This document shows positions 9,871 through 33,732 of a stretch of 33,732 nt of DNA, one piece after another. Numbering within the stretch: position 1 is the stretch's first letter; every line of letters starts with the position of its first letter. Position numbers and translations under genes: made by a program. The stretch is taken from NCBI GenBank assembly GCA_016190305.1, contig JACPQU010000002.1, forward strand, positions 1 through 33,732, in the 5' to 3' direction. Under the pieces are notes generated by a model that saw only the letters and a program-made list of their open reading frames with translations, did not search any database and had not been told where the DNA came from. Source of the stretch: Bacillota bacterium (GTDB lineage: Bacteria > Bacillota > JACPQU01).

Positions 9871-10945
9871 AGAAAGGTTCCTCCTCCAGGTAGTCGCCGG
9901 TGACGGCAAAAGCCCTGGCCCTGCACCCCATGCACTTTCTCCGGTAGCCGCAACGGCCGCACTTGCCCTTGAGCAGCGAAGGATCTCTGAGTAAGGCCAG
10001 GAGTTCGGATTCACGATAGATCCTGCTGAAAGGTTGTTCGGTAATCTTTCCGGCCAGCAGCGGCAGATAACCGCAGGGGAAAACCTCGCCGATATGAGAG
10101 ACGAAGCAGAACCCATTCCCGGCCATACAACCCCGGGGGTCGTGGATGGATCCCGAGGCGGCTTCAGTTTCCTTGCGCTGATCGACAACTCGCGTGAAGT
10201 GAGGCCCGCAGGTGACCTTCACGGGGATGGGGGCTGAAACAGCCTGGTCACGGAGCCAGATCAGGGCTTCCTCGTATTCGGAGGGAGTCACCTCGTCCTC
10301 CACTCTCCCTCGCCCGGTCGGGACGAGCATGAACACGTCCCAGGCAAAAGCTTTCAGGCTGAGAGCCAGGTCGAGGATGAAAGGCAGGTCATCCAGGTTG
10401 GCCCTGGTGAGGGTCGTGTTCACCTGGCATGGGATCCCGCCGGCAACCGCTTTCTTGATACCCTTGACGGCGGCTTCGAAGGCCCCGGGCGCTTTCCGGA
10501 ACCGGTCGTGGCGCTCGGAGGTAGATCCGTCGAGACTGATGGAAATACCCCTGAGTCCGGCTTCACGCATCCGCCGGACGGTTTCTTCCTCCACCAGGGT
10601 CCCGTTGGGGGACATCACCGCCGGAAGGCCGCGCTGATTCGCATAGGCGGCGACCTCGAAGACATCTTTTCGGAGCAACGGCTCCCCGCCGCTGATGATC
10701 AAGAGGGGTTTGCAAAAAGATGCCAAATCATCGATAAAGCCCATTACCGCGCCGGTTTCGAGCTCGTCGGGATGAGCCTGGTGACAGGCCTCCGCCCGGC
10801 AGTGGACACAAGCCAGGTTGCAAGCGCGGGTCGACTCCCAAACCACGACGCGGGGCTTGAAGTCTTTCAGATCGGAAGTCTTCATCAGAGCCGGAGTCCC
10901 TATATCCGGAGTTTTTTTACCCGGAGTGTTCAGGCCCTGGTTCAC
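9854..10945 (-). CDS. ahbD: Radical SAM heme synthase AhbD
   Basis: AhbD oxidatively decarboxylates two propionates of Fe-coproporphyrin III to vinyl groups, giving heme b. The radical-SAM motif CNLACVHC is in WESTRACNLACVHCRAEA, with ISGGEPLLRKDV next. A C-terminal auxiliary cluster region follows: GCMAGNGFCFVSHIGEVFPC, CGRCGYRRKCMGC and PFCVYQP. TCGPHFTRV is also typical of AhbD. The GTG at 10945 has GGGAGGGG 6 nt upstream and is preferred over the track's GTG at 10990; an ATG at 10885 is a further alternative with a poorer ribosome site. The product is 363 residues. It is the first heme gene, 41 nt after terC. Confidence 0.9.
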   Translation of the reverse strand: MNQGLNTPGKKTPDIGTPALMKTSDLKDFKPRVVVWESTRACNLACVHCRAEACHQAHPDELETGAVMGFIDDLASFCKPLLIISGGEPLLRKDVFEVAAYANQRGLPAVMSPNGTLVEEETVRRMREAGLRGISISLDGSTSERHDRFRKAPGAFEAAVKGIKKAVAGGIPCQVNTTLTRANLDDLPFILDLALSLKAFAWDVFMLVPTGRGRVEDEVTPSEYEEALIWLRDQAVSAPIPVKVTCGPHFTRVVDQRKETEAASGSIHDPRGCMAGNGFCFVSHIGEVFPCGYLPLLAGKITEQPFSRIYRESELLALLRDPSLLKGKCGRCGYRRKCMGCRARAFAVTGDYLEEEPFCVYQP

Positions 10946-10986
10946 CCAAGACCCCTCCCGGCCCGGGGATTCCCTTGCAATCACAA

Positions 10987-11955
10987 TCACTTTAGATCGA
11001 CCCGATCTGTGAGGTGCAGGGAATCCGCCGTCTTAGTCGCGCTGCGGTCGGGAAAAACCAGGGAAGCCACGGCGGTGACAACCAAAACCATGCCGATGAT
11101 TCCCAGGGAGATCCCGATGGGAATGGGCAGGAAACCCGAGATCAGCATCTTGAATCCCACGAAACAGAGAACCACCGCCAACCCCTGCTTCAGGAAACGG
11201 AATAGCTTCAAGGTGTTGGACAGCAGGAAAAAGAGTGAGCGGAGTCCCATGATGGCGAACACATTGGAGGTATAAACGATAAAGGGGTCTCTCGTAACCC
11301 CGAAAATGGCCGGGATGGAATCCACGGCGAAGACCAGGTCCGAGCTTTCAACCACCAGGAGGACCGGAAGCAGAGGGGTGGCCAGCAGGCGGCCGCCGAC
11401 CCGGGTAAAGAAGCGCTCTCCGTGGTAATCCCCGGCCATCGGAATCAAGCGGCGGGCGACACGCAGGATTGGATTGGTTTCGGGTTCGAGCCCTTTCTCC
11501 TTTTGCAGCCCGGTCTTGAACCCGGTAAAGATCAGAAAGGCGCCGAAAACGTAGACCACCCAGTGAAAGGCCTCGAAGAGGGCGACACCGACCCCGATGA
11601 AGAAAGCGCGCATGACCAGCGCGCCGAGAATCCCCCAGAAGAGTACCCGGTGCTGGTACGCTCCAGGAACCCGGAAGTAATTGAAGATGAGCAGGAACAC
11701 GAAGAGGTTATCCACGCTGAGGGATTCCTCGATGAGGTAGCCGGCGAAAAATTCCAGGGCCTTCTCCGAGCCTCTCAAGACGTAAATACCGGCTCCGAAA
11801 GCCAGAGCCAGGGAAACCCAGAAGACGACCCAGTACGCCGCCTGGCGGGTGGTCACCTCATGGGCCTTCCGGTTGACCACCCCCAGATCGAGGGCCAAAG
11901 CCCCGATGACGACAACAGCGAAGATCAACCACATCAACTGTTCCCCGGGAATCAT
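10987..11955 (-). CDS. TerC/Alx family integral membrane protein
   Basis: The 322-residue protein has eight or nine hydrophobic segments. The two family signatures are ESLSVDNLFVFLLIF (about 77-91) and VVESSDLVFAVDSIPAIFG (about 201-219), whose aspartates are thought to bind metal. Relatives include tellurite-resistance TerC and the manganese exporter Alx/MeeF, and several work with Sec-secreted metalloenzymes. Transport of Mn2+ or another divalent metal is likely but unproved. The ATG at 11955 is preceded by AAAGGTGG at 6 nt. An extended -10 promoter lies 40 nt upstream. The heme genes follow within 41 nt, so this gene probably starts the ahb-tatC transcript. Confidence 0.88.
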   Translation of the reverse strand: MIPGEQLMWLIFAVVVIGALALDLGVVNRKAHEVTTRQAAYWVVFWVSLALAFGAGIYVLRGSEKALEFFAGYLIEESLSVDNLFVFLLIFNYFRVPGAYQHRVLFWGILGALVMRAFFIGVGVALFEAFHWVVYVFGAFLIFTGFKTGLQKEKGLEPETNPILRVARRLIPMAGDYHGERFFTRVGGRLLATPLLPVLLVVESSDLVFAVDSIPAIFGVTRDPFIVYTSNVFAIMGLRSLFFLLSNTLKLFRFLKQGLAVVLCFVGFKMLISGFLPIPIGISLGIIGMVLVVTAVASLVFPDRSATKTADSLHLTDRVDLK

Positions 11956-16533: not shown

Positions 16534-17571
16534 TTACTTCGTTCCGATCTCCTTCAGCACTTCATCCAGCAGGCTCCGATCGAAAAGCTGATCAGGTTTG
16601 GTTCCCTCGGGAAGTTGTTTCCCATTGACAAAGAACTCAGTGGTCTTCGCCTGTCCCTCCGGCTCCAGACCTCCGTTGACCGGGTAAAGCTCGTACTTGC
16701 GGTCCAGTTCGTGAAGGGCCTTCAAGACATCCTCTTCGGCACCCGGCAGGAACTTGGGCGCCTGCTCGACATAGTACTCGGGGTCTACGGCCATCCTGCG
16801 GTGCACTTCCAGGATCGCCTTGATCACTGCCTTCACATCCTTGGCATTGCTCTTGAGATAGTCGGTCCTGGCGAAGAACGGCACGGCCTGGAGCCAGGGA
16901 AGATCATCGGCGAAGGAGACGAGGACGTTGAACTCCCCGGGTTTGGCCATGCTGATCCGCACGATGTCGCCGAATTCCAGGGGCGTGGCGTCGATCTCAC
17001 CCCGCAACATCGCGTCGGCCCTGTTCTCGGAGCCCTGGATCAGCAGAACTTGCGGCTTGATGTTGGGGGCTTTCTGGGCGAAGACGATGTTGGTCATGGC
17101 GGTCGCCTGGGCGCCCGGGCTGTGATGGGCCAGCTTCTTCCCGTCCAGGGCCTCAAGTGTCTTGGTGGCCCCGCGCCCGGCCAGCACCCAGTTGTTCCGG
17201 TGCTGGAGGACGAACGCTTTCATAGGGGCTCCCTGAACGATGGCGGCATAGAGGGTCTGCCCCCCGGTGTTCCCGATATGAGCATCTCCCCGGAGAACCG
17301 CCTCCACGCCCAGTTCGGTCTTGGCGAAGAACTTGGGCACCACCTCGTAACCCTGCGCCCGCATGAGCTCCCAGGCAAGCAGGGACGGCACATCGCCGTT
17401 ATCCGCCACCGATGGGTACGAGACGATGATCTTCTTCAACTGGCCTTGTTTACCGGTTGTCTGTTTCTTGCACGCGGTCAGACCGACTCCGACCAAGAGT
17501 AAACCAACGATGAGCAGGATGAGCAACCTGGAACCGGTGAAACCCGATCGCTGAGCGCTTCTGCCGAACAA
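16534..17571 (-). CDS. ABC transporter substrate-binding lipoprotein, NrtA/SsuA/TauA (NMT1-like) family
   Basis: The 345-residue lipoprotein has a signal ending GVGLTAC (Cys about 34). The mature part has the family opening IIVSYPSVADNGDVPSLLAWE, then ELGVEAVLRGDAHIGNTGGQ and DGKKLAHHSPGAQATAMTN. Family members bring nitrate, sulfonates, taurine, thiamine precursors or small aromatic acids to an SsuBC-type permease, and the ligand cannot be told here. The start is a TTG at 17571 with GAGGGG about 9 nt upstream. It is the third gene after two permeases and ends at an intrinsic terminator. No ABC ATPase gene is present in the window. Confidence 0.88.
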   Translation of the reverse strand: MFGRSAQRSGFTGSRLLILLIVGLLLVGVGLTACKKQTTGKQGQLKKIIVSYPSVADNGDVPSLLAWELMRAQGYEVVPKFFAKTELGVEAVLRGDAHIGNTGGQTLYAAIVQGAPMKAFVLQHRNNWVLAGRGATKTLEALDGKKLAHHSPGAQATAMTNIVFAQKAPNIKPQVLLIQGSENRADAMLRGEIDATPLEFGDIVRISMAKPGEFNVLVSFADDLPWLQAVPFFARTDYLKSNAKDVKAVIKAILEVHRRMAVDPEYYVEQAPKFLPGAEEDVLKALHELDRKYELYPVNGGLEPEGQAKTTEFFVNGKQLPEGTKPDQLFDRSLLDEVLKEIGTK

Positions 17572-17712
17572 TCGCGATCACCCCTCAGCAGTTAGTTTCT
17601 TGCCAATCTCTTCAAGCCTGACGACGGCCGGTGATCACCACACCCCCTTTGAACCTGCTCCCTTTGCTCCCTCCAGATTCCGCTGTTCAAATTCGTTGAT
17701 CGGCGGCGCGGC

Positions 17713-18510
17713 TCACTTGTCCCACGGCGCCAGGCGGCGATGTCCGAACCTGATCAGAGATGTGAACACCAGGGCCACGACCGTGATCGTCGCGATGATG
17801 GCGAAGAGGTACTCGCCGTTGAAGGTGTTTCCGTAGTGCATGACCATCGCGCCCAGCCCGACGACGGTGATCAGCATCTCTCCGTTGACCATCCCCTTGA
17901 TCGCCCTGCCCACACCCATCCGGATTCCGGCCATGATCAAGGGAAGGGCTCCCAGAAGCCTGATCTTCCAGAAAAGCTGCCCCTCGCTGGCCCCGAATGA
18001 GACGGCCATTTCCACCAACGCGGGATCCAGGTATCGAATCCCCGTGAAGGTATTCACCACGATCACCCAGAAGGCGAAGAGAAAGGTGACGGCCACCCTG
18101 GTGGCGTCACCAAGGCCGAAGAGAATGATCAGCAACGGGATGAAGGCGAGCATGGGAGCTGACATCCCGAGGTTGATCCAGAAATCCAAGGCATCTTCAA
18201 TCAACTGGTAGCGGGCCATCAGGGCCCCCAGGAGGATTCCGACGAATACGGCCAGGAAAAATCCTGCTGCGAAATAGCCCAGGCTCACCACGATATGAGG
18301 TCCCAGCTTACCCGAAAGGATCAGGTCGAACCAGGCCTTGACCGCTCCGGAAACCGTTGGGATGATCACGGAGATCTTCAACCGGCCGAGGATCTCCCAA
18401 AGGAGCACCGCACCGCCAAGGGCCGCCAGACGCGGGCCGAAAACAGTGAGGAATCCCCGTTTCCGGGATCGCACCGCTCCCACGAGAGGACTTGCCAGAT
18501 CGCCGTTCAT
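17713..18510 (-). CDS. ABC transporter permease (SsuC/NrtB family), second copy
   Basis: The 265-residue membrane protein has about six transmembrane segments. The EAA-type loop lies around MAVSFGASEGQLFWKIRLLGALPLIMAGIRMGVGRA, where the coupling helix would touch an ATPase. VVLVFTSLIRFGHRRLAPW at the C-terminus is typical of SsuC/TauC. The ATG at 18510 has AAGGGGG 7 nt upstream. It lies 12 nt after a related permease gene, so the two could form a heterodimeric channel. The 141-nt gap to the binding-protein gene holds no ORF. Confidence 0.9.
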   Translation of the reverse strand: MNGDLASPLVGAVRSRKRGFLTVFGPRLAALGGAVLLWEILGRLKISVIIPTVSGAVKAWFDLILSGKLGPHIVVSLGYFAAGFFLAVFVGILLGALMARYQLIEDALDFWINLGMSAPMLAFIPLLIILFGLGDATRVAVTFLFAFWVIVVNTFTGIRYLDPALVEMAVSFGASEGQLFWKIRLLGALPLIMAGIRMGVGRAIKGMVNGEMLITVVGLGAMVMHYGNTFNGEYLFAIIATITVVALVFTSLIRFGHRRLAPWDK

Positions 18511-18522
18511 CAGTTCACCCCC

Positions 18523-19329
18523 TTAATCCACGACGTTGATCTGGGTCCAGGTGATCAATCTTTTCTCAACCCTTTTCATCAGGGCCATGACCACCGCCGC
18601 CAGTCCGATGACGGTGATCAGGGTGGCGAAGGTGTAATGAGGTTTGAAAAGACCTGCGTACTCCAGGAGAAGGTAACCCAGTCCAACGGCTGTGACCAGC
18701 ATTTCCCCGGCAATCATCCCCACAAACGCTCTGCCGATCCCCAGCCGGATTCCGGCGACAATCGCCGGCGAGGCCCCCGGCAGAAGCACCTTGCGGAACA
18801 ACTGTGGATTGCTGGCTCCGAAGGAACGGGCCATCAGGATCAGGTCGTTGCTCACGGTCTGCACCCCGGTGGTGACATTGACCATAATAATCACGACCGC
18901 GAAGAGAAAAACGATCACGATGCGGGAAGCGAGGTTCAAGCCCAGAACCGCGATCACCACCGGCGCAACGGCCATCATCGGCAGCACCAGGAGAATGCTG
19001 ATGTATACATCAAAAGCCTGTTCCAGCTTCCTGAACCATCCGAGGGCCAAGCCCACGGTGCAGCCAAGCAGGATGGCGATGAGCAGTCCGGAAATCAGCG
19101 AAATCCCGCTGATCAGCAAGGCCATCGGGAGCCGCCCGCTCGCCATCAGTTCCACCCAGGCGGAGGCGGTACGGGTAAAGGTCGGAATGCTGAGGCTGTC
19201 CGAGGCTCGGCCTACCATTTCCCAGATGAGGATAACGGCCGCGATCGACACCCCCCTTACGAGCCCGGGGCGACGCTTGGAACTCCGGCGTGACTTCCAT
19301 GTCGGATAGGTAAGCTCGGGTACAGGCAT
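18523..19329 (-). CDS. ABC transporter permease (SsuC/NrtB family), first copy
   Basis: The 268-residue permease has the same architecture as its downstream neighbour, with the EAA loop in MARSFGASNPQLFRKVLLPGASPAIVAGIRLGIGRAF. ALMKRVEKRLITW ends it. GGAGGG stands 6 nt before the ATG at 19329. It is the first structural gene of the importer operon, preceded by a long leader with an upstream ORF and a C-rich segment. Two different permeases without an adjacent ATPase suggest the energising subunit is encoded elsewhere or shared. Confidence 0.9.
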   Translation of the reverse strand: MPVPELTYPTWKSRRSSKRRPGLVRGVSIAAVILIWEMVGRASDSLSIPTFTRTASAWVELMASGRLPMALLISGISLISGLLIAILLGCTVGLALGWFRKLEQAFDVYISILLVLPMMAVAPVVIAVLGLNLASRIVIVFLFAVVIIMVNVTTGVQTVSNDLILMARSFGASNPQLFRKVLLPGASPAIVAGIRLGIGRAFVGMIAGEMLVTAVGLGYLLLEYAGLFKPHYTFATLITVIGLAAVVMALMKRVEKRLITWTQINVVD

Positions 19330-21290: not shown

Positions 21291-22370
21291 TCAGCCTCCC
21301 GACATGCGCCGTTCCGCTGGCGGGGAAAGCTGCGAACCCCTCAGCTCGGCGACGGTCACCCCCGCCCGCTCCAGGAGGGCCAGAAGTTCGCGGTTGATCT
21401 GGTATGCGACCCGCCAACCCTGGTAGACCAGGGCGGTGACCAACTCGACACAATCGGCGCCTGCGGCGATGGCCCGGAAAGCATCCCTGCCGGAAAATAT
21501 GCCTCCCAGGGACTTGATCGCCAACCGGGCGCCGGTGACCTCGTAGAGTTCCCGGATAAAAGTCAGGTTGCGCTCCATGGTCGGCCTGCCGGAGATATTC
21601 CCTTCGCCCAGAGAGATCCGTCTTTCCGCCTGCAGGAATGAACCGGGCATGGTCACCCCGGACACCCCGTGGCGAAGGCAGACCCGGGCCAGTTCGAGCC
21701 GGCTTTCCCGCTGCTCGGGAGAAGCGTAGCTCCTGATCTTGACGAAGATCCCCTTGTCTCCACGTCGTTTCCCGATTTCCCGGAGCAGGAGATCCAGGTT
21801 CGCGGGGTCGAGGAAGTTCACACCCTCTCCCCGGGTGTTTGGACAGTGCAGGCTCAACTCAATGACATCGGTCAGGGGTTCCAGAACCTCGAAGCAACGA
21901 AGATATTCCTCCACGGTCATCCCCTGGATGTTAAGAATGAGGCCGGAGAAACCGGGCTTGCGGTTGGAAACGAACCTGCTGATCCTGCCTGCGCAATCCT
22001 CGACCCCCTTGCTGGGCAATCCCAGGCAGTTGATCAGGGCCTCCTGGGACGGGTATCGAAATATTCGGGGATGCCGGTTACCCGGCCGATATCCCGGCAG
22101 GATCGAGCCGATCACCAGGTATCCGAAACCCAGCCTGGACAGTCCGGGGAGATATTCGCCGTCCTTGTCGAATCCGGCGCCCAGGCCCACCGGGTTGGCC
22201 AGCTTTAACCTTCCTATCTTCACCTCCAGCCTGGGATCGCTCACCTCCAGGCGGTTGCCGAGGGTCTTCCATGGCCGCTCCCATCCCAGCGCGGTTCCGG
22301 CCAGCCTATGAGCGCTCTCCGCCGGGAGGCGGAAGAGCGCCGGACGCAACGCGCCGCGGTACAGATTCAT
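21291..22370 (-). CDS. Dihydroorotate dehydrogenase-like flavoprotein (class 2 scaffold, altered active site)
   Basis: The 359-residue protein has the FMN-binding TIM-barrel features of class 2 PyrD. LPAESAHRLAG lies in the N-terminal helical region, then NPVGLGAGFDKDGEYLPGL (about 59-77), PGNRHPRIFRYPSQEALIN and SLGGIFSGRDAFRAIAAGAD. Changes from PyrD are clear. The catalytic-base position in LHCPNT (C176) is the class 1 Cys, not the class 2 Ser. GFNN is replaced by GLPS. The orotate-contacting NTT is replaced by MPGS (about 241-244). It may therefore oxidise or reduce a different compound. The ATG at 22370 has GGGGGG 6 nt upstream. It follows flavoprotein 3 in the same direction after 130 nt. 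Confidence 0.8.
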   Translation of the reverse strand: MNLYRGALRPALFRLPAESAHRLAGTALGWERPWKTLGNRLEVSDPRLEVKIGRLKLANPVGLGAGFDKDGEYLPGLSRLGFGYLVIGSILPGYRPGNRHPRIFRYPSQEALINCLGLPSKGVEDCAGRISRFVSNRKPGFSGLILNIQGMTVEEYLRCFEVLEPLTDVIELSLHCPNTRGEGVNFLDPANLDLLLREIGKRRGDKGIFVKIRSYASPEQRESRLELARVCLRHGVSGVTMPGSFLQAERRISLGEGNISGRPTMERNLTFIRELYEVTGARLAIKSLGGIFSGRDAFRAIAAGADCVELVTALVYQGWRVAYQINRELLALLERAGVTVAELRGSQLSPPAERRMSGG

Positions 22371-22500
22371 CCGGTTCCCCCCTTCCCGCCGATCAAGCAA
22401 TCGTGAAGACGCCAAAACAGGGTCACGCATTTCGGATCAGCATTCTATAGTCGATACGGCAGAGTTTTGTTAGCCGGTACCTTTTTAACAGATTGGATAT

Positions 22501-23787
22501 TCAGGATGCCTTATTAAAGATCCCCGCCAAGCCCAGTTCAGCGATCCGGCCGGCCACGACCTCCCGCTCGGTGGTATAAAGCCCCTTTTCCTTGAGGCGG
22601 TCCCAAACCCCTCCTGTTCCTTGCATGGAGTACTTGTGATACCAGCCTTCCTCCGTCTGCAGGCGCTCGTTGATCCACGCCAGGGATTCCCCTACCGCGG
22701 TCCGGCGGGGGAGTTCGATCGGGGGTATGGAGAGGGCGTGACGGGCGGCGTTGTGTCCGGCCAGCAGGCCGCTGACGGTCACCGTATCCACGCCGACCAG
22801 GAGGAGCTTCTCTCCGGCGCAGAAAAGATTGGGCACCCCGGTGACCTGAAGCCGGTTATCGTGAGGGGCCACGGCCAGGAAACGCACTCCGTTGCCCCTG
22901 GTTCCCACCAGCGGGTCGAAGAAAGCCGCCCGCTCGAAACCCTTGACCCGGCGCAAGGCGTCCAGGTTAATCCAGGGACGGGACATGACCTTGACCATCC
23001 CGGTGTCCACGCAGACGAGGTTATCCTCGTACTCAGGTCGGGATAGGTACTGCTGGGTGCGGATCTTGCGGAAATACTCCCGATCCCCGAGTGCATCCGG
23101 CGCCGGGATCAGGGCGACGCCGCCGCCCGCTTTGATCCGATCCAAGATCTCAGGGGAGAGAGAACCCGGGATCAAGACACAGGCGTTGCTCATGCTTCCG
23201 ATCCCGCCCCCTCTTTGCCGGGCCTGTCCCTCCTTCACCCCTGCTTTCTCCGTGATGCTAACCCTGGGACCGTAAACCGGGCAGCGCAAAAGACAAAGGG
23301 TGCAACCCCGCCCATGCTTGCGGCACATGGCCTCCGGGCCTGCTCCGCCCGTGGCGTCCACGAAAGCGTCGGCCTCCAGCACCTCGTTCCGCCCCAAGCG
23401 GATGGCCGCCAGCTTTCCATCGCCCCAGATGACGTTTGTGGCGCGGGTGTTGAACCGCACCTCCACGTTCAACCTGTCAAGGAGGCGGCGCATGTTTTGT
23501 TCGGCCTTAAAAAGGTCGTAGAGAATCGAACCTTCCAGGTGAGGAATGGGGACGTTATGATACTTGACCGCGTTGCGCGATACCTCGAAGACCTCTCCCG
23601 CACCCATCTCCTCGCATTCCATGACCCCGACCCGCTCACCGTTGATGTCGCAGATACCGGCCATGTTTCCGACCCCGAGAAGGTAATCGGACTTCTCCAC
23701 CAGAACGGTCTCCACACCCATCTTGGCAGCGGTGACGGCGGCGGCACAACCGCTGAAGCCGCCCCCCACGATCACGACCCTTGGCAA
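22501..23787 (-). CDS. FAD-dependent oxidoreductase with four-cysteine motif (paralog 3)
   Basis: The 428-residue, more distant paralog of the genes at 15032 and 20001 has PRVVIVGGGFSGCAAAVTAA at the N-terminus. DATGGAGPE and then MCRKHGRGCTLCLLRCP follow, with the identical C-x6-C-x2-C-x3-C-P spacing. GEKLLLVGVDTVTVSGLLAG is near the end. The track starts 30 residues earlier. The TTG at 23787 is preferred because AGGAGGGGG lies 8 nt upstream and the length then matches its paralogs. The maleate isomerase-like gene lies 55 nt upstream and the dihydroorotate-dehydrogenase-like gene downstream, suggesting one operon of three enzymes. Confidence 0.84.
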   Translation of the reverse strand: MPRVVIVGGGFSGCAAAVTAAKMGVETVLVEKSDYLLGVGNMAGICDINGERVGVMECEEMGAGEVFEVSRNAVKYHNVPIPHLEGSILYDLFKAEQNMRRLLDRLNVEVRFNTRATNVIWGDGKLAAIRLGRNEVLEADAFVDATGGAGPEAMCRKHGRGCTLCLLRCPVYGPRVSITEKAGVKEGQARQRGGGIGSMSNACVLIPGSLSPEILDRIKAGGGVALIPAPDALGDREYFRKIRTQQYLSRPEYEDNLVCVDTGMVKVMSRPWINLDALRRVKGFERAAFFDPLVGTRGNGVRFLAVAPHDNRLQVTGVPNLFCAGEKLLLVGVDTVTVSGLLAGHNAARHALSIPPIELPRRTAVGESLAWINERLQTEEGWYHKYSMQGTGGVWDRLKEKGLYTTEREVVAGRIAELGLAGIFNKAS

Positions 23788-23842
23788 CGATCCGACCCCC
23801 TCCTGCCCCATTTTGGAGCATCTATTTTTCTGGATATCAGCC

Positions 23843-24547
23843 TTATAACCAGAGACTTGTCTCCTCCCGGCCGGCAAGGTTCTTCCCGCAAAGCCGGAGC
23901 AGGTACCAGATCAGGGCCTGGTTGCTGCTGACCACCGGCTTTCCCAGATCACGCTCGAGATCACCGATCATCCGGATCACCGGTAGGTTGGTGCAACTGA
24001 TGAACAACCCGTCCGTTCCGGCAGGCAGTGCATGCATAGCGGCCCGCCGGACCAAAGCAGGATCCATCTCCGCCAGGGTGGGAACCCCTTCCGGTTTTGG
24101 ACAACGCCTCAACTCAACGACCTCAAGCTCCTTTTCCACCAGGAATGATCGCAGGCAGTTATTGGATTCTTCACTGTAGGGCGACACGACCACGACCCTG
24201 GCCATTCCCAGGTGACGCATCGCTTGAATCACCGCCTCCGCGGTGGTCGCCACCGGGACATCGACCAGTCCGCCCATGACCCCGCGGATCTTGTCATCGT
24301 AAGAAGACCCGCCGATGAAGCTGCCCGCCGTGCAGCCGAAGCCGATTGCATCAACGCGGGCCAGGGAAAGCTCCAGGCAAACCCTGGGAATGTCGTCGAA
24401 CATCCCTCGGAGATTAGACGGATCGCCGGTGGAAGCGCTTTCCGGATCGCCGGGCATTCTGGAAAAGTGGGCCGTGACCCATTCCGGAAGCAGGGCATAC
24501 GCATCCGGTTCGAGGGTGGTGTTGCGTGCGGGAACCGCAATCCCCAA
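23843..24547 (-). CDS. Maleate isomerase / Asp-Glu racemase superfamily enzyme
   Basis: The 234-residue enzyme has GIAVPARNTTLEPDAYALLP at the N-terminus, typical of maleate isomerase and arylmalonate decarboxylase. Both catalytic cysteines of the two-cysteine mechanism are present: C72 in GFGCTAGSFIGG and C185 in LFISCTNLPVI. That argues for isomerase or racemase chemistry rather than the one-cysteine decarboxylase. Maleate isomerases end several ring-degradation routes such as nicotinate breakdown, but no such route can be reconstructed here. The start is a TTG at 24547 behind GGGAAGGG at 5 nt. It is divergent from the exporter gene across 228 nt with no ORF. Confidence 0.86.
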   Translation of the reverse strand: MGIAVPARNTTLEPDAYALLPEWVTAHFSRMPGDPESASTGDPSNLRGMFDDIPRVCLELSLARVDAIGFGCTAGSFIGGSSYDDKIRGVMGGLVDVPVATTAEAVIQAMRHLGMARVVVVSPYSEESNNCLRSFLVEKELEVVELRRCPKPEGVPTLAEMDPALVRRAAMHALPAGTDGLFISCTNLPVIRMIGDLERDLGKPVVSSNQALIWYLLRLCGKNLAGREETSLWL

Positions 24548-27439: not shown

Positions 27440-28822
27440 TTACTTGATCCCAACGACGGTGCCGGCCAAAGCCTTCAGGTCCGGCACCTTTTCAACCCCC
27501 GGAACCCGTGCGATTTCCGGAAAAGGTTCCTTGAAGGGCCTGGTAGCGTCGATAGCCATGCTGTCGTTGATCCCTTCCTGGGCGGAAGGATCCAGGGCCG
27601 CCAGGCAGTTATTCTCGATGATGATCACGTCCCGGCCGGGCCGGGAGCGGGTTGCTACCGCCCAGAGTACCTGGGTTTCATCGAAGACGTCCACATCCTC
27701 GTCACAAAGCACCACCATCTTGGGCTTCAGGTTGCTTCCCAGGGCGGAGGTCAGGATGCACCGACCTTGGTTCCGGTACCTGATCCCGGCCGATACGTAC
27801 GCGGTATAACGCGCGCATCCGGAAAGCGGGAGGTGAACTGCGCGCACCTCCGGGAACTGCTGCTTCAGGTCATAGTACAGCGAAGCCTCGAACGGTAACC
27901 CGCACAGGGCATGGTTTTCGGTGACGGGCGGGCCGGTGAGCCCGGCTTGCCACAAGGCGTCACGGCGCATGGTCACCGCCGTCACCTCCATTACCGGAGA
28001 CATGCTGCCGGGGCCATAGTAGCCGGAGAACTCTCCGAAAGGTCCCTCGGATTCCCGGTACCCCGGCAGGAGCCGTCCCTCGAAGACGATCTCGGCCCGG
28101 GCGGGAACCATCAGGTCCACAGTCCGAGCCTTGACCACTTCAACCGGTTCCCCGCGCAGGCCGCCCGCAATCCCCAACTCGTCGACCCCGTAGGCCGCCC
28201 GTACCTGGGAGGCCAGGAGCAGGGACGGTTCCAGACCCTGGATCACGGCTATTTCCAGGGCCTGTCCCCTGGATTCGGCCTTCTCAAACTGGATCTTGAT
28301 GTGCTTGTTGGCTGAAGACCAGAAGAACCCCAGGCGGTTTTTCCCCTTGACCTGCATCCGGTGGATGGCGGCGTTGGGAACTCCCGTGTCAGGATCCCTG
28401 GCGACCTGAACGGCCATCGTGATATAGGGCCCGCCATCCTGGGCGCAGTATGTGGGGGCGGGGAAGCGGGCCAGATCCACCTCCTCCCCTACGAGAACGA
28501 TCTCCTGGCAGGGGGCTTCGTCAATAGATACTCCCACAGGGGGAAGGGGGTTTCGGATCCCGTCCAGGAAGCGGTCCAGGGCGTTCTCCCTGGTGAAGCC
28601 CAAGGCTTCCACGACCCGATCCCGGGAATTGACCACACCGCCGACCACCGGCATCCGGTGTCCCTTGACATTCGGAAAGAGGAGGGCCGGGCCGGCGGTG
28701 TCACACGTTTTTCGAAGGTACGCGGCAATCTCGAAGACCGGGTCGATCTCGTCCTGGATGGTCAGAAGTTGACCTCTGGATTCCAGGTAAGCCAGGTAAT
28801 GACGTAAATCTCGAAATCCCAC
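27440..28822 (-). CDS. UbiD-family prenylated-FMN decarboxylase
   Basis: UbiD enzymes (de)carboxylate aromatic or unsaturated acids with prenyl-FMN. The 460-residue protein keeps the key residues: N150 and R155 in NAAIHRMQ, and the E259/E264 pair in ESEGPFGEFSGYYG. The spacing is the same as R173, E277 and E282 in fungal Fdc1. The track start is a GTG at 28840. The GTG at 28822 has GGGAGGGG at 8 nt and is preferred. It lies 22 nt after the molybdoenzyme gene, so the two are co-transcribed. No UbiX flavin prenyltransferase is in the window. A substrate shared with the molybdoenzyme, possibly an aromatic acid, is an inference. Confidence 0.92.
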   Translation of the reverse strand: MGFRDLRHYLAYLESRGQLLTIQDEIDPVFEIAAYLRKTCDTAGPALLFPNVKGHRMPVVGGVVNSRDRVVEALGFTRENALDRFLDGIRNPLPPVGVSIDEAPCQEIVLVGEEVDLARFPAPTYCAQDGGPYITMAVQVARDPDTGVPNAAIHRMQVKGKNRLGFFWSSANKHIKIQFEKAESRGQALEIAVIQGLEPSLLLASQVRAAYGVDELGIAGGLRGEPVEVVKARTVDLMVPARAEIVFEGRLLPGYRESEGPFGEFSGYYGPGSMSPVMEVTAVTMRRDALWQAGLTGPPVTENHALCGLPFEASLYYDLKQQFPEVRAVHLPLSGCARYTAYVSAGIRYRNQGRCILTSALGSNLKPKMVVLCDEDVDVFDETQVLWAVATRSRPGRDVIIIENNCLAALDPSAQEGINDSMAIDATRPFKEPFPEIARVPGVEKVPDLKALAGTVVGIK

Positions 28823-28844
28823 CTGCCCATCCCCTCCCACCTTT

Positions 28845-31421
28845 TCAACGTCCCACCTTGGCCACCCTGACCTTCACGCAGGAATCGAGAGCCCCCGAAA
28901 GCGTATCCACCCGACGGACATCCTGGTGGATGAGGGTGTTGAAGTTGATCCCCTTCCCCTTCGCCACCGGCTGGCCCGCGGCCCAGTGACCCTGGGAGCC
29001 CATCACCGCCAGCACCTCCGGATGGATGCCTTCGGTCGTCGAGAGCCTTCCATGCACCCGGTATCCCTGGGGTGTCTCCAGGGTTACTTCGTCTCCGTCC
29101 CCAAGCCCCTTGTTCCTCGCGGTCCAGGGGTTGATCAGGATGTCCCTGGCCCCGGGGATCCGATCCGTCAGGTCGCCCAGCCAGGGGTTCTCGTAGGTAT
29201 AGGAATGAGCATGGTACGGCACCTTGTAGTTGATCACCCAGAGGTCGTAGCCGTCCCTGAGGTTGAAATCAGGACAGGGCTTCCAATCGGGCAGAGGATC
29301 ATAATCCGAAGTGTCCCACTCGAATCCCACCGTCTCCGCCACGCGGGCCACGTCCTCCCCCGCTCTCTTGAAAAACTCGTAGTACAGATGCAGCTTTCCG
29401 TCGGTGAACGGCATGGGGAAGACCTCTTCCGGCTTTTTAGGGATGGTGTGGAGCCCGGCCTCCTTGAAGTGAGTGAGCCCCAGTTCTCCACCCAGTTTCG
29501 ACTTGAAGCGGCGGTCGCTGACCTCCTCCACGCTGTAACGACGGTCCTTCTCCAACTGGTGTGGTTCCTTGAGCTGCAGCAGGGTGTTCAAGGCCTGGTT
29601 ATAGCGGTCGAGGATGCCCAGCCGGCCGGCCAACTCGCTGATGACCTCGGGCCAGTGCCGCACCCCTGGGGGCGGATCCACCACCGGCTGCCTGACGGCA
29701 TAGTACCAGTCGCTGGCATTGGCCATCACCCAGGAACGCGGGGCGTTGGGCATAGCGTCGGTCCGCTCCAGGAAATGGGTATCCGGAAAAACCACATCCG
29801 CCATCTCCACGCTGGCGTCAATGGTGAAGGCGATGGAGGCGATGAAACCGATGCGCGAGAAGGCCTCCGCCATCTGGGCAGGATTGGAGGTCTGCTGCAT
29901 GTAGTTGTTCCGCCAGTGCAGCATCGCTCCGATTTCATATGGAACCCGGTACTTTTCACCGTGGAGCAGCACTTCCGGGACAATCGACCTGGCGTAAACC
30001 GCCACCGGAAAGATCTCCACCAGTTCGGCGGTCTGGGGAGCGCGCACTTTCCGGGGGGGATAGGGCAGCAAGGAGTGGGCCGAATTCAACCCCGAGGTGG
30101 GTACGAGCATCCCGTCGGGCCCCGACTCCGGCTTCCAGGTTGGACCGGCCGCGCTGACCCCCAGGTGGCCGCCGGGCACGTTGACCGCGCCGATGATCGT
30201 GTTCAGGAGTTGAATGGCCAGTCCGGTGTGCAGGGCGTGCTTGTGGGCGATCGCACCGCGGCTCCAGTCGGCGTGAGCCGGACGAAAAGGCAGTTCGACT
30301 CCGTCGATGGTGATGGTGGAGCCTACCCGGGCGGCCGCTCCATACTCCCTGGCAATCACCCGAACCTGCTCCGCCGGGATGGTGGTGATCTCCTCCACCC
30401 GTTCGGGAGTGTAGGCGCGGACGTGCTCCCGCAGAAGGGAAAATGCCGGTTTGCACGGGGTCCCATGGACCTCGAAGGTTCCCTCCAGCGCCACGTCCCC
30501 TACGAGGGTATCGAAGGTGCGGGCTGCGCCTGCCGCCGGATCCCAGACCAGCGGCTTCCCGCTCTCCGGATCCCGGGCATAATTTCCCGCTGCTGTAATC
30601 AGGTAAGGACCATTCGTCTGATGCTTGATGAATCGGGCATCGTAGATCCCCAGTTCGTTCAACAACTGGTTCACCAGGCCCAGGGCCAGGGCGGCATCCG
30701 TCCCCGGCCTGATCGGGACCCACCGGTTGGCCTTGGAGGCCGCGTAGGAGCACATGGGGTCGATGGCCACGACCTTAAGTCCCTGGCGGCGGCGCTGGGC
30801 CATCTTGCGGGTGATCCCCAGGGCGTTGAGGTGAATGGGCACCCCCTGCTGGCTTCCGAAGAGCAAAAGGTACTCGCAATTGTCCACATCCGACTCGCAA
30901 TACCAGGCCCCGTGATGCAGCCAGAGCACCGAGTGAAGTCCGTTGCCGCAGAAAACCCCGGCAGGCCCGGCCGTGGTGTTGGGGGTGCCGAAGGCGGTGG
31001 CGAATGCTTCACCGAAGGTGCTCATCAGGTGGGCATCCCAGGCGGAAATCAACAAACCCCGCGGATCCTTGTCTTTCACCTTCCGAAAGGCATCGGCGGT
31101 GAGTTCCATGGCCTCTTCCCAGGTGATCTCCACCCATCCCGGGTCCACCCCGATCCCCTTCCGGGGATTGGTCCGCTTGAGCGGGGTCCTGATCCGGTAT
31201 GGATTATAAAGGCTCATGATCCCGGCGTTGCCCTTCGCGCAGACCGCGCCGAAGTTGTGCGGGCTGGCCGGGTTCCCCTCGATCTTGACCACCACGCCGT
31301 TCACGCGGTGGACCAGGACATGGCAGGCGTTGTAGCACATGTAGCAGGTGGTCGGAATCCAGGTGTGATCCGTCTTCTCTTCAGACGCGCTTCCGGATCG
31401 CGCAGGCTCGGGCGCGGTCAA
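28845..31421 (-). CDS. Molybdopterin (bis-MGD type) oxidoreductase, cytoplasmic
   Basis: The 858-residue catalytic subunit belongs to the DMSO reductase superfamily. An N-terminal [4Fe-4S] site uses C26, C29, C33 and C61 (CYMCYNACHVLVHRVNG, AVCAKG). The region that supplies the metal ligand reads FGTPNTTAGPAGVFCGNG, making C158 the likely Mo or W ligand. The C-terminal molydop-binding domain includes INPWTARNKGLGDGDEVTL. There is no Tat signal, so it acts in the cytoplasm. The start is a TTG at 31421 with GGAGGGGG 5 nt upstream; the track ATG at 31436 has none. No ferredoxin-like or membrane subunit lies beside it. The downstream partner is a UbiD decarboxylase. The substrate is unknown; thiosulfate/polysulfide-reductase-like or hydroxylation/dehydroxylation roles are possible. 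Confidence 0.9.
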   Translation of the reverse strand: MTAPEPARSGSASEEKTDHTWIPTTCYMCYNACHVLVHRVNGVVVKIEGNPASPHNFGAVCAKGNAGIMSLYNPYRIRTPLKRTNPRKGIGVDPGWVEITWEEAMELTADAFRKVKDKDPRGLLISAWDAHLMSTFGEAFATAFGTPNTTAGPAGVFCGNGLHSVLWLHHGAWYCESDVDNCEYLLLFGSQQGVPIHLNALGITRKMAQRRRQGLKVVAIDPMCSYAASKANRWVPIRPGTDAALALGLVNQLLNELGIYDARFIKHQTNGPYLITAAGNYARDPESGKPLVWDPAAGAARTFDTLVGDVALEGTFEVHGTPCKPAFSLLREHVRAYTPERVEEITTIPAEQVRVIAREYGAAARVGSTITIDGVELPFRPAHADWSRGAIAHKHALHTGLAIQLLNTIIGAVNVPGGHLGVSAAGPTWKPESGPDGMLVPTSGLNSAHSLLPYPPRKVRAPQTAELVEIFPVAVYARSIVPEVLLHGEKYRVPYEIGAMLHWRNNYMQQTSNPAQMAEAFSRIGFIASIAFTIDASVEMADVVFPDTHFLERTDAMPNAPRSWVMANASDWYYAVRQPVVDPPPGVRHWPEVISELAGRLGILDRYNQALNTLLQLKEPHQLEKDRRYSVEEVSDRRFKSKLGGELGLTHFKEAGLHTIPKKPEEVFPMPFTDGKLHLYYEFFKRAGEDVARVAETVGFEWDTSDYDPLPDWKPCPDFNLRDGYDLWVINYKVPYHAHSYTYENPWLGDLTDRIPGARDILINPWTARNKGLGDGDEVTLETPQGYRVHGRLSTTEGIHPEVLAVMGSQGHWAAGQPVAKGKGINFNTLIHQDVRRVDTLSGALDSCVKVRVAKVGR

Positions 31422-31506
31422 AGGGACCCCCTCCATTCAGTCGGACATATTCCTTGTTGAACGACGGATGGGAGAAATCCTCCTGGAAAGCGGTTATAAG
31501 CCTTTC

Positions 31507-31728
31507 CTAATGCGGGCCTCCCGCCCGGGGCGGGAGGCTGGAGCAAAGATGCCATGCAAGGTGATGGAGCCGATCCAGGCTGTAGACCGTGAACACCTCT
31601 GCCTTACGCTCAACCAGGATCCGGTTCAATTTCCGGTACCCTTCCCCTCCCGGCATCCGGGGGGAAGCGGTTTCCTTTACCACTTCCACCAGGTCCGAGC
31701 CACGCTCGTAAGCTTTTCTCCTTTCCAT
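31507..31728 (-). CDS. Small resolvase-like ORF, probably a recombinase remnant
   Basis: The 73-residue ORF resembles part of the catalytic domain of serine recombinases: DLVEVVKETAS, then RKLNRILVERKAEVFTVYSLDRL, echoing the resolvase pattern that ends in KLDRL. The N-terminal catalytic serine region and the C-terminal DNA-binding part are missing. GGAGG stands 6 nt before the ATG at 31728, so it may still be translated. Its last codons run through an 11-bp inverted repeat (31516-31538). It sits between the cupin and molybdoenzyme genes. It is either a decayed mobile-element gene or a small reused domain. Confidence 0.5.
   Translation of the reverse strand: MERRKAYERGSDLVEVVKETASPRMPGGEGYRKLNRILVERKAEVFTVYSLDRLHHLAWHLCSSLPPRAGGPH
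31516..31538 (-). terminator. 11-bp inverted repeat at the end of the resolvase-like ORF
   Basis: GCCTCCCGCCC and GGGCGGGAGGC flank a single G, so in practice a stem of about 9 bp with a 5-nt loop. It is very GC-rich and lies about 95 nt before the molybdoenzyme start. No U-tract follows. Confidence 0.4.
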
Positions 31729-31770
31729 CCAGATCCTCCGGCATTGCCGGTATAAATTTGGCGGGGTGTG

Positions 31771-31804
31771 GGGCGGGGGCCGGCCAAAAGACCAACCCCC
31801 GCCC
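31771..31804 (-). terminator. GC-rich hairpin downstream of the cupin gene
   Basis: GGGCGGGGG (31771-31779) and CCCCCGCCC (31796-31804) pair perfectly around a 16-nt loop, 40 nt after the cupin stop on the minus strand. There is no immediate U-run. It may partly separate the JAMM-ThiS-cupin genes from the molybdoenzyme-UbiD genes. Confidence 0.5.
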
Positions 31805-31843
31805 TGACGTCGTGCCGCTTTGAAACAGCAACCTACAATCAGG

Positions 31844-32902
31844 CTACTTTCTCAGATCCCACGGGAAGAGAGGCACGTAGTCGCTGGGCGGCTCGGTGAA
31901 GTCGCCGTCATGGCGCACTTCCAGAACGTTGTGCTCCGCCAGGAATTCCTGGAGGGGAATCTGGGTGATGGCGATGTGCTGGGTGGTCGAATCCTTCTGG
32001 GGATTCCAGTGCTGGTGCCAGACGGCGGTGGGCACGAAGATGGTATCGCCCTCCTGCCACTCGTAGCGCACTCCGTCCATCAGGCTGTATCCCTTTCCCT
32101 GCAGGACGTAGATGATGGCTTCGTCATGCTTGTGGGTCTCGGTATGAGACTCGGGCGGCAACTGCTGCAGGTGCATCCGGACCACCTGGTTGGCGAAACC
32201 GTGGCCCTGGTCGGCGATCCCGACGATGAAGTCACCCTTGTGGACCGAACGCTCCAGCTGGACGTCGCGCCCGCGCATGATCGTCCGGGCATCCCGGATA
32301 TGCTGCTCCTGCCCTGCCACCCTTTCCCGCCGGCGCAACTCGACGATGCTCATCCACTTCTCTCCGCCGACCATCTCGATGGGCTTTTGCTCGTAGCCGA
32401 ACGGATGGGGCGGCACGTAGTCCTCCGGCGGGTCGCTGTAGGTATCCCCCTTGGGGACCACGGGCATAGGCTGGACGTAGTTGATCAGCGGCTCGTTGGT
32501 GGCCCAAAGGAAGTTGGCCGGCTCCTCGTCGCTGATGTTGAAGTGCTGGTTCCAGTAACCCGGCTTGATGTGCAGGGTGTCGCCGCGCTCCCACTCCACC
32601 CTCTCATCGTTGATGATGGAGTACCCGTGGCCGTTCAGGACATGCATCAGGGCCTCGGGGTTTCGCTGGGCCTCACCGTGTCCCCCGGGGGGAACGTGAA
32701 AGATGTCCAGGGACAAAATCCGGTTATCGAAGCCGATGTGACGGCGGATCACCGGAGCCACCATGAGCCCGCGGGTGGAGGAGAGCTCGAACCGGAGGTC
32801 CTCCCTTTTCGAGATTAACCTTAGATTGCGCAGGCGTTCCTTTTCGATCATCTCGTCCGCTCGCCGGGCCTTGTCGATACTTGACTGCCATTTCTCGTCC
32901 AT
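31844..32902 (-). CDS. Double-cupin (gentisate dioxygenase-like) protein
   Basis: The 352-residue protein has two similar cupin halves, each ending in a PP-DYVP motif (PPEDYVPPHPF, PPSDYVPLFPW). The second half has a full metal site: H257, H259 and E261 in HKHDEAIIYVLQGKGY and H298 in VWHQHWN. In the first half the aligned residues are Q79, N81, E83 and H120 (QRNPEALMHVLNGHGY, YWNQHFN), so both first-motif histidines are lost. Bicupins of this shape include gentisate dioxygenase, but an oxygenase is odd in an anaerobe. A binding or isomerase role is possible. The ATG at 32902 has AGGGGAG at 8 nt. It follows the ThiS-like gene by 37 nt. Confidence 0.86.
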   Translation of the reverse strand: MDEKWQSSIDKARRADEMIEKERLRNLRLISKREDLRFELSSTRGLMVAPVIRRHIGFDNRILSLDIFHVPPGGHGEAQRNPEALMHVLNGHGYSIINDERVEWERGDTLHIKPGYWNQHFNISDEEPANFLWATNEPLINYVQPMPVVPKGDTYSDPPEDYVPPHPFGYEQKPIEMVGGEKWMSIVELRRRERVAGQEQHIRDARTIMRGRDVQLERSVHKGDFIVGIADQGHGFANQVVRMHLQQLPPESHTETHKHDEAIIYVLQGKGYSLMDGVRYEWQEGDTIFVPTAVWHQHWNPQKDSTTQHIAITQIPLQEFLAEHNVLEVRHDGDFTEPPSDYVPLFPWDLRK

Positions 32903-32939
32903 GGTCAAGACTCCCCTCATGCTGAGTTAGACCTCTCCC

Positions 32940-33215
32940 CTACTTGCCGGTCGACCCTCCCTTGATCAAGGGCACCAGGGTGATCAGGTCACCATCGTGC
33001 AGCACCCGGTCGACTTCGGCCAGCTTGCCGTTGACCCGAAGCTCCATCCTGGCCGTGCTCAGGGCTGTTTGCTGCAACAACTGTCCGACGGTGGTCCCTT
33101 GGGCCACCGATTTCCGGAGCACCCCTTTGCCCAGTTGCACCAGGCGGACGCTCAGGGTTTGCCCTTGAACCTCTGCCTGATCCGAGCGCTGACCGGTACC
33201 GCTACCCTGCTTCAC
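32940..33215 (-). CDS. ThiS/MoaD-like beta-grasp protein with a tail after Gly-Gly
   Basis: The 91-residue protein has a beta-grasp core (LSVRLVQLGKG, TVGQLLQQTAL, MELRVNGKLAEVDRVLHDGDLITLVPLIKGG). ThiS and MoaD carry sulfur on a terminal Gly-Gly. Here GG (86-87) is followed by STGK, so it cannot be activated by an E1 until the tail is removed. A JAMM-type peptidase gene lies 68 nt upstream and could do this, as QbsD does for QbsE. The GTG at 33215 is preferred because AGGAGGAGG stands 6 nt upstream; the track start adds 15 basic residues. Whether it serves molybdopterin synthesis, other sulfur transfer or protein tagging is open. Confidence 0.82.
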   Translation of the reverse strand: MKQGSGTGQRSDQAEVQGQTLSVRLVQLGKGVLRKSVAQGTTVGQLLQQTALSTARMELRVNGKLAEVDRVLHDGDLITLVPLIKGGSTGK

Positions 33216-33283
33216 GTCAGTCCTCCTCCTGAGTCGCTTGATCCGAGTTGAGTTATCCAAGTTCCAAGTTGTCGAAGCAGCGT

Positions 33284-33732
33284 TTACTTGCTCTTCTGGG
33301 GCAAGCTTCTATTCACGGTTTCCACCCCGGCTTGCAGCAACCCCCTGACCTCTTTCTCCAGGCCCCCATGCCATTCCCGGTAGGAACGGGCTTCCTCCGG
33401 GAAAAGGATCTCCACCTCCACCTCGTCGCACCGCCGAGCCGGGTCATATTGGTCATAACGGGCCAGGAGGTCGCCCCACTTGTTCATGACCACCGAAAAC
33501 ATCCCGTTGTTTTGGAAGAGTTCAATCGTCTCGACGTCAGTATCGCTCCATAACACCGGCTCCAGACCGTGGCTGTGCCACCAGAACCTGATCTCCTCCG
33601 GGTTTTCACCTTTCTCCACGAGTTCCACCAGGAACCCGGCCACGGCCTCCGGGCTGAGGAAGGTGCTGTAGCGGCCGTACTCCTGGGGAAAAAGGAAGAT
33701 CTCCTCCAGGATCCACTTGCCCTGGTGATCAA
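33284..33732 (-). CDS. JAMM/MPN-domain metallopeptidase (5' end outside window)
   Basis: The frame stays open to the window edge, so the track's GTG at 33643 is not the true start. WWHSHGLEPVLWSDTD contains the zinc motif H-x-H-x7-S-x2-D of JAMM (Mov34/JAB) peptidases. The catalytic Glu, normally near the N-terminus, should lie upstream, perhaps outside the window. The visible upstream residues include KWILEEIFLFPQEYGRYSTF. Bacterial JAMM enzymes trim the C-terminus of ubiquitin-like sulfur carriers or cut isopeptide or CysO-cysteine-type bonds. The next gene encodes such a carrier with a removable tail, which makes it the probable substrate. Confidence 0.82.
   Translation of the reverse strand, partial: DHQGKWILEEIFLFPQEYGRYSTFLSPEAVAGFLVELVEKGENPEEIRFWWHSHGLEPVLWSDTDVETIELFQNNGMFSVVMNKWGDLLARYDQYDPARRCDEVEVEILFPEEARSYREWHGGLEKEVRGLLQAGVETVNRSLPQKSK

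Follow-up and report, generated by a model that had tools for sequence, protein, structure and literature searches.

Gene organization of the locus

The window, that is the whole 33,732-nt stretch of DNA analysed here, is the entire contig C197 of a 1.89-Mb bin (G000) which is 79% complete. Five genes on the minus strand form the locus at its end. In the order of transcription, they encoded the C-terminal 148 aa of a JAMM metalloprotease cut by the contig end (33284..33732; ORF 33730-33284), a ubiquitin-like beta-grasp modifier (Ubl) of ThiS/SAMP2 type with 91 aa (32940..33215; Pfam ThiS, 5.4e-7), a bicupin of 358 aa (31844..32920; Pfam Cupin_2 in two stretches), a single-subunit bis-MGD molybdo/tungsto enzyme of the DMSO reductase superfamily with 863 aa (28845..31436; Pfam Molybdop_Fe4S4, Molybdopterin and Molydop_binding) and a UbiD-family prenyl-FMN decarboxylase of 466 aa (27440..28840; Pfam UbiD_N/UbiD/UbiD_C). 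The intergenic gaps are 68, 19, 407 and 4 nt. The original prediction described a six-gene cassette running in one direction with gaps mostly under 100 nt. Its family assignments of JAMM, beta-grasp protein, bicupin, molybdoenzyme and UbiD were borne out by motif, Pfam and model matches, so five genes are real and share one strand with three short gaps, but the 407-nt gap between bicupin and bis-MGD genes interrupts the row and the sixth gene found no support.

This sixth candidate (31507-31728) is a 73-aa ORF (31728-31507) inside the 407-nt gap. It had no significant family match, and its GC3 was 0.685 compared with 0.76-0.85 in the five other cassette genes; it was rejected. The gap itself had a fold z-score of -3.9 and contains, on the minus strand, a GC hairpin with a 15-bp stem and a UUUU loop (31771..31804). 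The hairpin was absent from the terminator-like sites of our scan and no T run comes after it; it is a possible end of the first transcription unit. Because the small ORF lacks a family match and has low GC3, and the 407-nt gap carries a hairpin, we describe two transcription units instead of one six-gene cassette. Here they are called module A (ending with the bicupin) and module B (bis-MGD enzyme and UbiD).

Elsewhere in the window, a duplicated NirDL/AhbAB-type siroheme decarboxylase fusion lies between two radical SAM/SPASM proteins (7439-10990), probably an alternative heme or d1-heme pathway. Genes for an FAD oxidoreductase, a DHOD-like dehydrogenase and an arylmalonate-decarboxylase/Asp-Glu-racemase-like protein were found at 21294-24547, near an NMT1-type ABC transporter (16537-19329).

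E2-like protein and JAMM protease

When the JAMM fragment was used as a query, its first 39 residues were found, identical, at the end of contig C85. The ends of C85 and C197 share exactly 121 nt. Exact end overlaps between contigs are typical of de Bruijn assemblies, and one of the same kind (133 nt) was present between bin contigs C29 and C141. From the 121-nt join, C85 provides the N-terminal 37 aa of JAMM with the JAMM glutamate (LLAPTEISGLG; C85:4753-4980). The JAMM start is overlapped by a gene for an E2-like protein of 191 aa (C85:4199-4774), whose N-terminal part is a coiled coil and which contains the motif HPHVQNGLPCLGN. Further upstream, the same strand encodes an X-Pro/CocE-type hydrolase and an amidohydrolase. 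The order E2-like, JAMM, Ubl and bicupin for module A, beginning on C85, is well supported, and it is the C85 join alone that depends on the 121-nt overlap. Misbinning of module A was considered and set aside: it shares contig C197 with the bicupin, bis-MGD and UbiD genes, and GC3 agrees. Since the GC3 of the cassette (0.78-0.85) is similar to that of the remaining locus genes, the cassette does not appear to be a recent foreign insert.

The window JAMM carries the HSH-x7-SxxD motif, which together with the glutamate gives the E and HxH-x7-SxxD residues of the JAMM protease in a conjugation cassette. It had no Pfam match, and showed similarity with a viral JAMM (locus L266; phmmer 4e-27). An AlphaFold model of the fragment, built with viral relatives, reached pLDDT 83, and its best PDB matches were P. 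furiosus JAMM1 (5lda/5ld9, probability 1.00); Rpn11 was also matched.

The E2-like protein, direct neighbour of JAMM in both genomes that carry it (see below), has the HPH...CLG motif with a conserved cysteine. A profile of the E2-like domain with 79 members was compared with PDB, and ubiquitin-conjugating enzymes were 60 of the 60 matches listed, the best being Ube2W (E=0.0011). Pfam UQ_con was matched by 8 of the 79 members, and it is the sole Pfam family matched by more than one. The AlphaFold model of the viral homologue from L266 had pLDDT 93. Foldseek with this model found no UBC fold in PDB, and one weak 'CBASS E2' entry in BFVD. Because Foldseek of the model gave no UBC, the putative E2 identity is confined to an assignment by sequence profile and context. 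At this level, the motif with cysteine and the profile make the C85 protein the E2/UBC-like member of a conjugation cassette.

Ubiquitin-like protein

The Ubl gene has a GTG start behind AGGAGG, and the protein ends with ...VPLIKGG-STGK, in which the di-glycine is masked by 4 residues. The Ubl of a Chloroflexi genome (G412), 44% identical, terminates exactly at ...IPLIKGG, and viral Ubl tails include KGGIH, KGGR and EGGN. Set against the exact KGG in Chloroflexi and the short viral tails, the KGG-STGK end predicts trimming by JAMM. The best matches of the Ubl family profile were PF1061 and SAMP2 (1e-10 to 5e-11). The ThiS match and the alignment with cassette Ubls both indicate a beta-grasp modifier with a C-terminal di-glycine behind a short tail.

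Viral cassettes

A DNA pattern for HPH[VI]xxGxxC[LF]G, validated on C85, retrieved 31 viral-contig stretches, and a pattern one residue longer retrieved 99 further ones; after translation, 128 viral ORFs carried the E2 motif. By profile searches, 111 viral loci had E2 and JAMM, 102 of which also had E1, and 81 had all four genes; many of the E2–JAMM loci lacking E1 are short stretches, or the stretch ends nearby. The gene order is nearly always Ubl–E2–JAMM–E1. Two viral E1s were checked and matched Pfam ThiF (2.7e-20 and 1.8e-16), and viral JAMMs gave sub-threshold matches to Prok-JAB. No bicupin, UbiD or bis-MGD match was detected in the viral loci.

For the viral loci L152-L281, PHROGs assigned no known function to E1 and had scarcely any or no information on the other cassette genes; it also gave no family for the C85 E2, JAMM or Ubl. 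One locus (L219, 10543-11175) encodes a polyprotein-like viral Ubl in which the beta-grasp domain is repeated three times in tandem, every copy ending KQIKGN, beside E2-JAMM-E1. An open-access literature search, which cannot prove absence, found no paper on the viral four-gene cassette.

A second cellular copy and distribution

The JAMM profile was run on 36 other genomes having bis-MGD relatives. A strong match was obtained in MAG RH-23may17-645 (G412), annotated as Chloroflexi, whose contig C9 contains E2, JAMM, Ubl and bicupin genes arranged and oriented as in the window. The identities to the window proteins were 34, 34, 44 and 39%, respectively (E 5e-32, 4e-20, 1e-20 and 5e-77). An E1 gene (L289:10715-11377) is adjacent, divergent and upstream of the cassette. 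UbiD genes are found at distances of about 7 and 17 kb from the bicupin, and the interval contains a cyclase-like gene and an ABC transporter. No bis-MGD enzyme was present in the ~33 kb read around the cassette. The original prediction was to be refuted if the molybdoenzyme and UbiD never occurred together with JAMM, ThiS-like and cupin genes; here JAMM, Ubl and bicupin recur with UbiD 7-17 kb off, but the bis-MGD enzyme does not accompany them in the stretch read. JAMM, Ubl and bicupin as a trio, and bis-MGD with UbiD as a pair, each recur apart from the other and are seen joined in the window only. A second JAMM of the same family on another contig of this MAG (G412:C1; L290, 9107-9694) is apparently an orphan.

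In the tree of E2 and JAMM, read off an unrooted newick, the window and Chloroflexi sequences are sisters (UFBoot 98), nested among viral sequences. This E2 was absent from 398 other genomes of the phylum sample, and single-sequence searches with JAMM and E2 revealed no other credible member in the phylum. Two weak matches were dismissed, one (G381) as an apparent ribosomal-maturation locus and the other (G366) as a coiled coil. Plasmid searches with E2 and JAMM gave no match. The second cellular cassette with bicupin is a single case (n=1) from a limited search set.

The C-terminal cupin of the bicupin retains THKH and WHQH, while the N-terminal cupin lacks the HxH pair. The C-terminal half resembles gentisate 1,2-dioxygenase (3bu7, 1.7e-18). 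The bicupin query found no full-length relative in 100 same-phylum genomes, which share only the phylum with the window genome, none in GTDB contigs or in viral contigs, and on plasmids only remote cupins. The Chloroflexi bicupin stands in the equivalent position. Based on the tree, GC3, the Chloroflexi synteny and the viral loci free of bicupin, we consider module A to be related to phage-type cassettes, apparently established in the genome, and tied to the bicupin.

A defence or counter-defence module of the Bil/CBASS/Bub-like kind, placed beside catabolic genes by chance, is another candidate: relatives are common in viral contigs, Ubl/E2/JAMM/E1 sets make known defence operons (Bil, PMC11354881), and the Chloroflexi E1 matches the E1-E2 models of PADLOC (4.5e-12). 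However, PADLOC returned only coiled-coil cross-matches for E2, JAMM and Ubl, none meaningful. No other defence genes were recognised in the window, of which PADLOC covered the cassette proteins. In two MAGs the cassette stays linked to a bicupin of metabolic type and to loci rich in UbiD, which also argues against this reading. We regard this explanation as unlikely.

E1 and the state of the cassette

A search for E1 (PF00899) gave 0 matches in the window's own bin, so the window set is filed as an E1-less variant and not as a full member of the conjugation cassettes. Because the bin is 79% complete, E1 may be unsampled. With E1 kept in 102 of the 111 viral E2-JAMM loci and not found here, the module could be the decayed remnant of a phage cassette, no longer functional after the loss of E1. 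Yet the three ORFs are intact and tightly packed with every motif residue present, and the other MAG preserves the gene order, bicupin included, at 34-44% identity, all of which makes decay rather unlikely.

The E1 result also bears on a sulfur-transfer system of quinolobactin/PDTC type, in which a thiocarboxylated Ubl would give its sulfur to a small molecule. JAMM, a ThiS-like protein and metabolic genes together are indeed the layout of the sulfur operons described by Iyer et al. 2006 (PMC1779556). In them, E1 is accompanied by rhodanese or SirA, and an E2 does not figure in their description (PMC1779556), whereas in both genomes studied here JAMM is directly flanked by an E2-like protein whose cysteine is conserved. 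An E1 with a rhodanese domain, as in ThiS-JAB-E1 operons, was found neither in the bin search nor in the gene lists; indeed the bin gave no E1, and no sulfur-donor gene occurs among the annotated neighbours. We therefore give sulfur transfer a low probability.

The bis-MGD enzyme and UbiD

The bis-MGD enzyme has Fe4S4, molybdopterin and dinucleotide-binding domains, invariant C31/C34/C38/C66 and a candidate metal ligand, C163. Its nearest solved structures are thiosulfate reductase (2vpw) and ArrA (6cz7). FeS and NrfD partner subunits are absent from the cassette, while most bis-MGD relatives have them (for example L068, L070 and L073). The best solved relative of UbiD is 6h6x/6h6v (E=1e-107), which we take to be HmfF; the catalytic motifs SEGPFGEF and IHR align, and the three UbiD domains are present with the catalytic Arg and Glu motifs. 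Paralogs on C158 and C124 are 69-71% identical to it.

That the two genes form a catabolic pair, as originally proposed, was supported by their distance of 4 nt and by recurrence: bis-MGD and UbiD genes are also close on C189 and C6 of the same genome, and in other phyla (L067, L068, L074, L076, L089). Adjacent pairs in the bin were 2 compared with 0.18 expected (P ~0.014, by a rough one-gene-per-kb model), and pairs within 3 kb were 3 compared with 0.88 expected (P ~0.06); this excess in the own bin is suggestive only. Locus L068 has bis-MGD, FeS, NrfD, MoaD-like, UbiD and a remote bicupin (26% identity) together, and no JAMM. The pair probably acts on an aromatic or heteroaromatic acid, and it is best read as a separate catabolic unit beyond the 407-nt gap with its strong hairpin. 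Module B may be a neighbour of module A rather than part of it.

The window bin has about 14 close paralogs of the bis-MGD enzyme (48-60% identity), and 12 UbiD loci plus genes of XDH-type hydroxylases. For a partial bin of 1.9 Mb, this number of bis-MGD paralogs and UbiD loci is an unusual expansion, and it suggests an aromatic or heteroaromatic specialist. One paralog (G000:C15:14062-16587) showed an in-frame TAG in the genome search, yet an open frame of 850 aa in L041.

Beside bis-MGD relatives in L066, L068, L069, L075, L077, L078 and L096, and beside paralogs of the own bin on C15 (L041, 8697-8993), C29 (L043, 9818-10120) and C78 (L046, 2672-3037), there is a MoaD-like beta-grasp protein which has GG at its C-terminus or close to it. 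Relatives with such a neighbour belong to Deltaproteobacteria, Betaproteobacteria, Burkholderiales, Chloroflexi and Acidimicrobiia. The MoaD-like protein appears to be a carrier or small subunit dedicated to this bis-MGD family. These neighbours, and the Pfam ThiS match of the window protein, speak for the suggestion of the original prediction that the ThiS-like protein is a sulfur donor to the molybdoenzyme, as a MoaD/ThiS-type carrier for assembling the cofactor. Nevertheless, BLASTP gave no significant match of the window Ubl to the MoaD-like partners on C15, C29, C78 and L068, and its best MoaD-like match, to a MoaD elsewhere in the genome, was E=0.017 over 16 residues, in contrast with 44% (E=1e-20) to a cassette Ubl. 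Its GG is not terminal, the protein finishing with GGSTGK. It sits in an E2-JAMM-Ubl run, with the bicupin and 407 nt before the bis-MGD gene, and the Chloroflexi copy has no nearby bis-MGD gene. As cassette neighbours are common in viruses and synteny is kept in Chloroflexi, we consider this 'ThiS' to be the Ubl of an E2–JAMM module, and a carrier role for the adjacent enzyme is very improbable. The idea of a dedicated beta-grasp carrier holds for the bis-MGD paralogs with MoaD-like neighbours, not for the window Ubl.

Proposed function of module A

From the gene content, the motifs, the homology and the four-gene synteny in the second MAG, the explanation that we favour as fairly probable is that a ubiquitin-like module of phage type has been domesticated within a catabolic locus, and that the bicupin acts as its target or ligand sensor. 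We propose the bicupin for the role of dedicated target or ligand-sensing partner since it alone accompanies E2–JAMM–Ubl in both genomes. In the predicted conjugation, JAMM would trim the Ubl after the di-glycine (KGG/STGK), and activation would fall to an E1 whose gene lies elsewhere or is lacking in the bin. The cysteine of the E2-like protein would then hand the Ubl on; the most likely recipient is the bicupin, or else a protein that the bicupin recognises with a catabolic ligand bound, and JAMM could later take the Ubl off the target. Regulation may follow: bicupin-specified tagging by a phage-type E2–JAMM–Ubl cassette might switch the catabolism of aromatic or heteroaromatic acids on and off, an extension that we offer tentatively and hold to be less likely than not.

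If the favoured explanation is true, a eukaryotic-type protein tagging system would seem to have been recruited for bacterial metabolic control, on the basis of E2–JAMM–Ubl with a cupin in UbiD-rich loci of two unrelated MAGs. The cassette names four small proteins suited to in vitro reconstitution. The viral Ubl–E2–JAMM–E1 cassettes are a large and little-annotated set for tracing the origin of E2.

Comparison with known systems

An E2–JAMM–Ubl–bicupin module with no local E1 in a catabolic locus is not described in the literature surveyed. According to Iyer et al. 2006 (PMC1779556), the ThiS–JAB–E1 sulfur operons are tied to metabolism, while E1–E2–JAB–Ubl operons (rows 6a-6e) show no major connection with metabolic enzymes. 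The latter operons, and the Bil operons reviewed in PMC11354881, group E2, JAB and Ubl as the window does, with a predicted conjugation/deconjugation pair, but they have E1 and the window set does not. In row 6d, the conserved histidine of E2 is absent (PMC1779556), whereas the C85 E2-like protein has HPH.

With the viral Ubl-E2-JAMM-E1 cassettes (IMG/VR L153, L266, L213, L225), the window and C85 share the E2-like type (coiled coil and HPH..CLG), the JAMM type (GEISGLG, HxHx7SxxD) and a Ubl with GG near the C-terminus. They differ in that the Ubl comes after JAMM, E1 is missing and the bicupin is next. Archaeal sampylation is also similar: SAMP2/PF1061 is the nearest match of the Ubl profile, and the nearest structure to the JAMM model is PfJAMM1, which was solved with SAMP2. 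As differences, the window Ubl has a tail past GG, and SAMP systems are not known to include an E2.

In module B, the window UbiD is, by sequence, a full-length homologue of HmfF (furandicarboxylate decarboxylase of Pelotomaculum; 6h6x/6h6v), but stands behind a bis-MGD enzyme. MoaD beside AOR tungsten enzymes (Iyer et al. 2006) is likewise a beta-grasp protein near a pterin enzyme. This arrangement differs from the situation of the window Ubl, and its true parallel is found in the bis-MGD paralogs on C15, C29 and C78.
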